Origin: Tubulanus polymorphus
Lineage: Eukaryota; Nemertea; Palaeonemertea; Tubulaniformes; Tubulanidae
DNA length: 64,000 nt
NCBI RefSeq assembly: GCF_964204645.1
Contig: NC_134028.1
Location: forward strand, 3,012,501 to 3,076,500
Direction: 5' to 3'
The notes below the pieces were generated by a model. That model was not told the DNA's origin, ran no database searches, and saw nothing but the letters and a program-made list of their open reading frames with translations. This document shows positions 9,064 to 12,387 of this stretch, piece by piece (position 1 is the stretch's first letter; every line of letters begins with the position of its first letter). Made by a program: the position numbers and the translations under genes.

Positions 9064-12000
9064 ATGGTGAGTTGACGTGTGAAAATTCTCTTGCTTACTT
9101 GATAAAATCTGTCGCCATCCGTGGCTTAATAGATAAATTTGATACAAAAACGTTATTGAACACCATAAGTTGAGATAATGAATTGTTAATTGATATTTTT
9201 GAATTGAAATATCGGCTATATGGGAAGGTAAATGTTTGAAGCGCCGGCTGATTCCATTGCAAAGGTGGCTCGCCCTTTCCTTATGTTAAACCACCTATAT
9301 TGCAGTGCTAAACTGATGCAATGAGAGCTGCATTACATAGCATTATTTAAAAGATTTTCCATTTATTTTAACCTTTTCAGTCGCACAGAAAATTTTCTGC
9401 TCCGAGGCATGGCTCTTTGGCCTTCCTCCCGAAGAAACGTAGTAGACGTCACCGCGGTAAATGCAAGTCTTTCCCGAAGGACAACAAAACCCAACCATGC
9501 CACTTGACAGCGTTCCTCGGCTACAAGGCCGGTATGACTCATGTCGTACGTGAAGCCGACCGACCGGGTTCCAAGTTGAACAAGAAGGAAATCGTTGAAG
9601 CTGTCACGATCGTCGAGACTCCACCGATGATCGCTGTCGGTGTTGTAGGTTACATCGAAACACCGAAAGGCCTCCGTACGTTCAAGACCGTGTTCGCTGA
9701 GCATTTGAGCGAAGAATGTCGAAGAAGATTCTACAAGAACTGGTGAGAATTAATATAATCAGCTTTTTAACTTCACTTTCAGGGATGTATCAATAAAAAA
9801 GTCCAGTAGTGGGGTTTATGGGATGATCAACTGTGGAACCACAGGATAATTTATTTTTAAATCCAGGATATAATAGGCCCCTTACATTAGATCGATACCC
9901 TGAAAAGATGACCGACTTGGTTTAGAAATTTGATGATCTCTGACCTTTCGGTGCCGATGGATGAATTTGCAATGTGATGAAAACGCATTTTGTTGCTAAA
10001 TGCGCTGGCAACCTGAACAACACTGTTGATATCACATGCTGCCTTCCTTCTGAAGCAATTCTCCAACTGTTAATGAATCTTATAAATCTATGTTTTCACC
10101 TGGTTTTTATCTCGTATACGAATATAATAACACATTACTCACGTGTAGGCCCCGCTCTGAGTTGATCTCTGAAGGGCTTTGCATACTGCCCCTCTGGTGC
10201 CTCCGTTGCATTATCGGGCATGTGTTACTATGGCTGCAGTTCTCCGCTCGTGTCTCGTACGCGATGAGGGCTCTAGCTTTTACTCTCCTCGTCATTTGTA
10301 AAGGTACCGATGCAAGAAGAAGGCTTTCACCAACTACGCCAAGAAATGGCAGGACAAGGTCGGCAAGAAAGACATCGCTCGTGACTTCGCCAAGATGAAG
10401 AAATACTGCAAGGTTATTCGAGTTATTGCCCACAGTCAGGTAAGAGACATTGTAATGAACGCAGGTTCAATTGGTGTCTGCCAATTCTGAAATTCACTTT
10501 TCCTAACACATTCGATGGAAACCCGTCCGATAGCAGGGAAGACATTTGGAATAACGAATGTATTCTGATATTCTTACAGATGAAGTTGCTGAAGAAACGT
10601 CAGAAGAAAGCTCACATCATGGAGATCCAAGTAAACGGCGGAACCATACCGAAGAAAGTTGACTTCGCTCGTCGTTTGATGGAGAAGAGTATCCCGGTTA
10701 ACCAGGTATTCAGCCCTGATGAGATGATCGATGTTATCGGTGTAACCAAGGGTAAAGGTTACAAGGGTAAGTGTGATCTTCGCTGCGTTAGAAATTCTCT
10801 TCATAACGTAATTATTAAATGATGAAAACGCATTCGTTGCCAAATGCGCAGGCAACCAGACATCAGTATGATGATACTACATGCTGCCTTCCTTCTGATG
10901 ACAATTTTTGTAAAACTGTAGTCTTGCTTAGTAAACTGTTCAAGTAGCTGAATTTTCCACAATTCCTTGTCTTTTTATTTGGTCAAGTCAAGTGTTTACT
11001 GCACTCGACTTCAGAATCAATTTGGTTGGAAGAAGTTTTTGATGCTGAGTATTTCTTTTTATTTCTTTAGGTGTTACATCCAGGTGGCACACCAAGAAAC
11101 TTCCGCGTAAGACGCATAAGGGTTTGAGAAAGGTCGCGTGTATCGGTGCTTGGCATCCGAGTCGAGTGCAGTTCTCTGTCGCTCGCGCCGGTCAGAAAGG
11201 TTATCATCACCGTACCGAAATCAACAAGAAGATCTACCGCATCGGCGCCGGAATTCACACTAAGGGCGGCAAAGTCATTAAGAATAACGCGTCGACTGAG
11301 TACGATATTACTGAGAAGACGATCACGCCCCTCGGTGGTTTCCCTCACTACGGTGAAGTCAACAATGATTATTTAATGATCCGAGGTGCTCTCGTCGGAC
11401 CCAAGAAGAGAGTGTTGACTCTTCGAAAGGTGAGTCTTGGACACCGTCTTGACAATAATACAGAAAATCCCTCCTAAAAATTGAATAGATTATTGACGTG
11501 CAAATGATGAACAAAAATAATAAGCATAGTTCAGCTGAAATTCTATGTTGATGCTAAAAGCTATCTGAGCACTCAATTTATCTGTGATGATGTCTTTATT
11601 TCGATGGTTGATGATTTTAACTGATGAATTGGTATTGTTATTATTTGCAGTCTCTGTTGGTGCACACCAAGCGTGTTGCGTTGGAGAAGATCAAGTTAAA
11701 GTTCATCGATACCTCTTCCAAGTTCGGTCACGGACGTTTCCAGACCAGAGAAGAGAAGATCGCCTTCATGGTAATTATTATTTCTTAATGATTGCGTCAG
11801 TAAACCGAGGAGAATCTATCGAGAAATTTAATGATGTGCATACATGATGATTGATTAGTCTTGCAGAATTTAAATAATCGTGTTGACGGATATCGCCCCT
11901 ATCTGATATGTACTTCATTGTTCTATATTTTATATCGATATTAATCTTAACCTTCTCGAAATATCAGCACATATGGCTTTTTAAATGTCTTCAATTTGAG

Positions 12001-12387
12001 TTAATCATATTTTAAGAATAGCTTTCAGTAATTTCTGAAAATGTCATTCTTAGTACAGGACAAATATAGTAGAAACTGCTTCATTTGGACCTTTGATATT
12101 AGGTTTATGAGATATTTGTAATGTAAAACTTTCAACAATAATGACATTAATATTAATGAAGCAATTTAAAATATTCAAAGTGTGCTATATGATGATTGAT
12201 TAGTCTTTCTGAAATATTTTCATGTAGAGACATATCGCCCCTATCTGATGCACCTATTTATTACTCAACTACATGTAGTCATTCTACTGCTCACTGCTAT
12301 TTGATCTGTTAAATTAATTTCGTGTTTTTTTTTGTGTGTTTTTAGGGACCGATGAAGAAAGATGTCCTGAAGGAAGAAGCTGCATAG
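9064..12387 (+). CDS. RPL3: 60S ribosomal protein L3 (uL3)
   Basis: Coding exons are 9064-9066 (ATG alone), 9381-9742, 10304-10439, 10580-10766, 11071-11429, 11651-11770 and 12346-12387 (TAG). They total 1,209 nt and encode 402 aa (human 403). uL3 is a core large-subunit protein whose extensions reach the peptidyl-transferase centre. What I see: [13 protein letters not shown] at the N-terminus, [62 protein letters not shown] with the histidine region that is methylated in other eukaryotes, and [16 protein letters not shown]. Only the C-terminal tail ([11 protein letters not shown]) is divergent. The start is fixed by the Met-only first exon directly after the TOP leader. Introns 2, 4, 5 and 6 carry C/D snoRNAs. 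Confidence 0.98.
9963..10061 (+). ncRNA. C/D-box snoRNA, SNORD83-like, RPL3 intron 2
   Basis: The C box GTGATGA is at 9974-9980, D' CTGA at 10013-10016, C' TGTTGAT at 10024-10030 and the D box CTGA at 10050-10053. GAATTTGC and GCAATTC flank the boxes and pair as a terminal stem with one bulge. The sequence before the D box, TGCTGCCTTCCTT, is complementary over 13 nt to the 18S rRNA stretch AAGGAAGGCAGCA. The fifth-nucleotide rule puts the methyl on the A of AAGGA, the site known in human as Am468 and guided by U83A/U83B, which also sit in RPL3 introns. Confidence 0.88.
10808..10908 (+). ncRNA. C/D-box snoRNA, SNORD83-like second copy, RPL3 intron 4
   Basis: The C box ATGATGA is at 10819-10825, the C' TATGATGA at about 10868-10875 and the D box CTGA at 10895-10898. 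The guide before D (ATGCTGCCTTCCTT) is the same as in the intron 2 copy, with the same predicted 18S target. The 5' halves are also alike (GATGAAAACGCATT, then GTTGC.AAATGCGC.GGCAACC), so the two are duplicates. The terminal stem is weaker here, and the D' box is degenerate. Confidence 0.86.
11496..11574 (+). ncRNA. C/D-box snoRNA, RPL3 intron 5
   Basis: The C box ATGATGA is at 11504-11510, D' CTGA at 11535-11538, C' TGTTGATG at 11546-11553 and D CTGA at 11565-11568. GTGC (11498-11501) pairs with GCAC (11569-11572) as the terminal stem. The D' guide contains GCATAGTTCA, complementary over 10 nt to 28S rRNA UGAACUAUGC; the predicted methylated base is the second A of UGAAC. I found no obvious rRNA match for the D guide. 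I cannot name its vertebrate counterpart. Confidence 0.8.
11836..11915 (+). ncRNA. C/D-box snoRNA, RPL3 intron 6, copy 1
   Basis: The C box ATGATGA is at 11844-11850, a degenerate D' (CAGA) follows TTAGTCTTG, a C' TGTTGA lies near 11881, and the D box CTGA is at 11903-11906. TACA/TGTA pair just outside the boxes. The D guide ATCGCCCCTAT is complementary to AUAGGGGCGA of 28S rRNA, and the D' guide (GATTAGTCTT) to the adjacent AAGACUAAUC. It is clearly related to the copy 270 bp downstream in the same intron. Confidence 0.82.
12180..12256 (+). ncRNA. C/D-box snoRNA, RPL3 intron 6, copy 2
   Basis: The C box ATGATGA is at 12189-12195, D' CTGA at 12209-12212 and D CTGA at 12245-12248. GTGC (12182-12185) and GCAC (12250-12253) form the terminal stem. 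It shares GATGATTGATTAGTCTT and ATATCGCCCCTATCTGAT with copy 1, while the rest has diverged, so the guides are what is conserved. Both guides match 28S rRNA: AAAGACUAAUC via D' and AUAGGGGCGA via D. Confidence 0.85.

Follow-up and report, generated by a model that had tools for sequence, protein, structure and literature searches.

The last intron of the RPL3 gene of Tubulanus polymorphus carries two box C/D snoRNA genes whose guides together are complementary to 20 contiguous nucleotides (nt) of 28S rRNA. These twins are most likely intron-encoded methylation guides of the snR60/U80/DmSnR60 kind, directed at the equivalents of yeast G908 and Drosophila A1092. An earlier note, made from the letters of this DNA alone, had described twin snoRNAs with guides over about 20 contiguous 28S nt; both copies are present in the intron it named, and their pairing was confirmed against a piece of 28S from this genome. 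The window is the whole 64,000-nt stretch that was analysed, and RPL3 and its snR60-type RNAs lie on its + strand.

The host gene has seven exons that, once joined, encode a 402-residue protein with a full-length match to ribosomal protein L3 (uL3) from many eukaryotes. Its last intron, intron 6 (11771–12345; delimited by splice sites and reading frame), holds the two snoRNA genes, which span 11844–11906 and 12189–12248 from box C to box D. The 3′ splice site is 439 nt away from copy 1 and 97 nt away from box D of copy 2. The paper describing the related fly RNAs gives one snoRNA per intron as the rule in animals, and about 70 nt as the optimal distance (PMC1821038). Two snoRNAs in a single intron run contrary to that rule.

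Both copies have box C near the 5′ end, box D near the 3′ end, a short terminal stem and antisense elements of at least 10 nt upstream of D and D′. Copy 1 (11836–11912) was classed as snR60-type from its boxes and guides in order, its fold and a sub-gathering match to RF00309, and ends in the terminal stem GUGCAUA/UAUGUAC, which is 7 base pairs (bp) long in the predicted fold. Its box C (ATGATGA, 11844–11850) is followed by the D′ guide (11852–11862; ending at 11863 in the boxed anatomy) and by a box D′ one change away from CUGA (CAGA, 11864–11867). Downstream are box C′ (GTGTTGA, 11880–11886, matching six of the seven positions of RUGAUGA when compared by eye), the D guide TCGCCCCTAT (11893–11902) and box D (CTGA, 11903–11906). 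Copy 2 (12180–12253), likewise of snR60 type by its boxes, fold and a sub-gathering match over the full RF00309 model, has a shorter predicted terminal stem. It comprises box C (ATGATGA, 12189–12195), the D′ guide (12197–12208; 12198–12208 in the boxed anatomy), a perfect box D′ at the canonical distance (CTGA, 12209–12212), box C′ (ATGTAGA, 12222–12228, five of seven positions by the same comparison), the D guide (12235–12244) and box D (CTGA, 12245–12248). Boxes C and D and the guides are identical between the copies and the stretch from D′ to the D guide has diverged, as the note had seen in describing guides kept while the rest changed.

Pairing was examined on the reverse strand of L001, a 28S fragment from this genome. 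The D guides of both copies pair with AUAGGGGCGA at positions 1–10 without a mismatch, and the D′ guides pair with the adjoining AAGACUAAUC, so that the two elements cover 20 contiguous nt without a gap. The D′ guide is paired at positions 2–11 in copy 1 and 1–11 in copy 2 (on AAAGACUAAUC), with an additional U–G pair at position 12 in each. By the N+5 rule, the second G of AUAGGGG is the target of the D guide, and 9 nt downstream the A of AAAGA is that of the D′ guide; both are the bases that had been predicted from the letters. Each guide fits its own place in 28S far better than its shuffled versions do: against a 39-nt target, the Watson–Crick run of the D′ element was equalled by 97 (copy 1) and 16 (copy 2) of 200,000 shuffles, and that of the D element by 28 and 23 of 200,000, respectively. 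A DNA search of the assembly found no intact rDNA, but only four 28S fragments, of which L016 and L017 carry mutations within the target. These fragments (L001/L014, L016, L017 and L018) are isolated, about 100–600 nt long and located on four contigs, and some are mutated in conserved stretches. The target sequence used here is thus taken from genomic fragments, some mutated, and backed by the Rfam consensus, in which the stretch is nearly invariant.

The numbering of the targets can be fixed from a third position. On fragment L017 the equivalent of yeast A817 lies 91 nt upstream of the G target of the twins, an offset equal to both 908 − 817 in yeast and 1612 − 1521 in human; the G target therefore corresponds to the Gm908/Gm1612/Gm917 site. 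Judged by this register, the D guide addresses the near-universal site known as Gm908 in yeast, Gm917 in Arabidopsis and Gm1612 in the old human numbering (Gm1625 in the new), where methylation is guided by snR60/U80 (PMC3511168, PMC11542601, PMC8053127). The D′ target is, by the same reckoning, the equivalent of Drosophila A1092. A table of human, yeast and plant sites has no methylation at that equivalent (PMC11542601), so the A site is not universal. Two statements of the earlier note give way here. It had placed yeast G805, A807 and A817 beside the targets, but they lie about 90 nt upstream (the A817-equivalent 91 nt before the G target); and it had proposed unlisted methylations, an idea that loses its support because the G is Gm908/Gm1612/Gm917 and the A corresponds to fly A1092, which is reported, together with G1083, as methylated under the guidance of DmSnR60a–d.

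Pattern searches of the 268-Mb assembly found no locus with a G908-type guide other than the twins, so that this genome probably has no further guides for the near-universal site. One extra match from a looser pattern, with a guide reading CGTCCCTAT, was taken as chance.

No match to Rfam at gathering cut-offs was found within the window, and the family assignment therefore rests on sub-threshold matches together with guide register. The gathering score of RF00309 (snR60/Z15/AtU80) is 41 bits, and all three relevant RNAs of the window fall below it, at 24.3 bits (copy 1), 26.4 bits (copy 2) and 33.5 bits (an RNA in intron 5). The consensus D guide of the family ends CGCUCCUAUCUGA and has the same register as that of the twins, although their guide forms 10 bp compared with the longer guide of the consensus (GUCUUUCGCUCCUAU). 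Genome-wide, many RF00309 matches near 33.4 bits have equal scores; one of them, L007, is AT-rich and without guide similarity, and was set aside as a probable dispersed repeat. The equal-scoring copies at L007 and about 14 other places are probably a repeat family of sub-threshold matches and not snoRNAs. A plant RNA, snoR10, has a similar D′ string (UGAUUAGUcUUG), but with an E-value of 4.1 and an assignment of Arabidopsis SnoR10 to 25S U2651 the resemblance was put down to chance.

The intron 5 RNA (11494–11577; E = 0.007 for its sub-gathering match) is a sister of the twins. Its A817-type D′ guide, GCATAGTTCA, pairs with 28S GAACUAUGC, in a register set on L017; the twins are without the Am817/Am1521 D′ guide of the snR60/U80 group, which the intron 5 RNA has instead. 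Ending in GCTAAAAGCTAT, the D guide of this RNA does not match the G908 site. With the A817 guide in intron 5 and the G908 guide in intron 6, the ancestral snR60 double guide appears to have been split between these two introns of RPL3. Two more box C/D snoRNAs, in introns 2 and 4 (9965–10059 and 10811–10906), have the same D guide, GCTGCCTTCCTT, in front of CTGA and are similar to U83/snR52 (RF00335 and RF00593, below the cut-off). Human RPL3 is a host of U83 as well, and a U83-type snoRNA in RPL3 may mean that this pairing of host and guest is old.

The closest counterparts of the twins are the Drosophila RNAs DmSnR60a–d (Me28S-G1083a–d, now the snoRNA:CD28 series; PMC1821038, PMC13228274). 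These box C/D snoRNAs occur as tandem copies in introns and have long complementarities before both D and D′, with predicted targets at G1083 and A1092; in 2007, primer extension at low dNTP found both bases methylated (PMC1821038), and the fly RNA has also been shown to be nucleolar. The text of that paper gives G1083 to the D guide and A1092 to the D′ guide, and the legend of Figure 6 has the reverse order (PMC1821038). The twins share with them D and D′ guides for the same two 28S positions, with the G (D guide) and the A (D′ guide) also 9 nt apart on our 28S fragment, and an arrangement in tandem intronic copies. This likeness is one of guides and targets as described, not of aligned sequence. 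The hosts differ: the fly RNAs occupy minifly/Nop60b as four copies, one per intron, whereas the twins are two copies in one intron of RPL3. The fly paper also calls the A site conserved in yeast and vertebrates (PMC1821038), which conflicts with the table of PMC11542601 and is doubtful. No mention of A1092 was found in the main text of a 2026 preprint on fly methylation.

Among other relatives, snR60/Z15/AtU80 (RF00309) and human U80 (SNORD80) have a D guide in the same register to Gm908/Gm917/Gm1612, but combine it with a guide to A817/A826/A1521, which in the rRNA is 91 nt further upstream, instead of the A1092-type guide of the twins. The nematode RNA ceN111 (RF01615) has a D guide, UUUCGCCCCUAU, suited to the same G site, and an A817-type first guide, AUAGUUCAGC, unlike that of the twins. 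Bipartite pairing around the target is also a feature of snR4 and snR45. Like the twins, these specialised box C/D snoRNAs target rRNA by base pairing, but they direct base acetylation of 18S cytosines (PMC5464676); the twins have a 28S target, registers for ribose methylation and no unpaired C between the arms.

That the twins guide methylation at both sites is not the only way to read so close a pair of guides. The D′ element could instead be an accessory pairing arm that stimulates methylation of the G908-equivalent by the D guide and guides no methylation of its own. Extra pairing beside the target is a property of more than half of the yeast box C/D snoRNAs, and its mutation lowers methylation by snR13 (PMC5389607). 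The abutting of the D′ arm on the D target without a gap, a D guide cut to 10 bp against the longer consensus, the imperfect C′ boxes, the CAGA in place of box D′ in copy 1 and the absence of the A site from the human, yeast and plant table (PMC11542601) would all suit such an arm. We nonetheless consider it unlikely, if a serious contender: copy 2 has a perfect CTGA at the canonical distance, and the equivalent A is reported methylated in Drosophila, where no other guide for it has been described (PMC1821038). A stricter form of the idea, in which the arm is a lineage-specific, dedicated docking device, both guides bind the 20 nt simultaneously across the C′/D′ junction to stimulate methylation at the G908 site or hold the stretch open, and the A stays unmethylated, seems to us distinctly unlikely. 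The D′ arm may, in addition to guiding, strengthen docking for the G site.

It is highly improbable that the twins act mainly as folding chaperones that keep the 20-nt stretch of 28S open during pre-60S assembly. Contiguous complementarity over 20 nt would fit that role, and early pre-60S particles have a described snoRNA chaperone in snR190 (PMC8536666); yet the registers fit methylation at two sites that are methylated elsewhere, so that no separate role need be invoked. Of the choice that the note had offered between methylation guides and a chaperone, the part that stands is two box C/D guides on adjoining 28S positions, and the sequence can be explained without a chaperone or extra-pairing role. 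We also give little credence to the notion that a snoRNA duplication left one copy, or both, as a relic without expression. Copy 1 would be the candidate, given its degenerate box D′ and its distance from the 3′ splice site, and the one-per-intron rule with its optimum near 70 nt (PMC1821038) points the same way; against this, guides and boxes C and D have stayed identical while the stretch between them diverged, and copy 1 retains a terminal stem of 7 bp. What counts against our preferred reading of the twins as guides is the sub-gathering Rfam scores of both and, in copy 1, the degenerate box D′, the unpaired position 1 and the remoteness from the 3′ splice site; for the A site in particular, it is the gap in the human, yeast and plant table.

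If the twins are methylation guides of the snR60/U80/DmSnR60 kind, splicing of the RPL3 pre-mRNA would release them, and after trimming they would enter particles with Snu13/15.5K, Nop56, Nop58 and fibrillarin. In AUAGGGG of 28S rRNA, the second G (yeast G908, human G1612/1625, fly G1083) would be 2′-O-methylated under the D guide, and the A nine nt downstream (fly A1092) under the D′ guide. Since their paired stretches lie side by side, each guide probably also helps the other to dock on the rRNA. The anatomy, complementarity, register and copy number of the twins were found directly; that they are expressed, assembled into snoRNPs and active in methylation in this species, like the path by which they evolved, is what we infer. 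In the simplest history, a double-guide ancestor would have been duplicated, with each copy keeping one of the old guides, and the copies in intron 6 would have gained or kept the A1092-type guide.

The twins are a further example of a known arrangement, with one target site near-universal and the other known from the fly with the same kind of RNA, and the effect on understanding is modest. They extend the adjoining double guide of the DmSnR60 type to another animal and to another host gene, RPL3, and suggest a route by which the guides of a double-guide ancestor could come to lie in neighbouring introns. Should this species prove to methylate the A as well, A1092-type methylation would not be peculiar to the fly.
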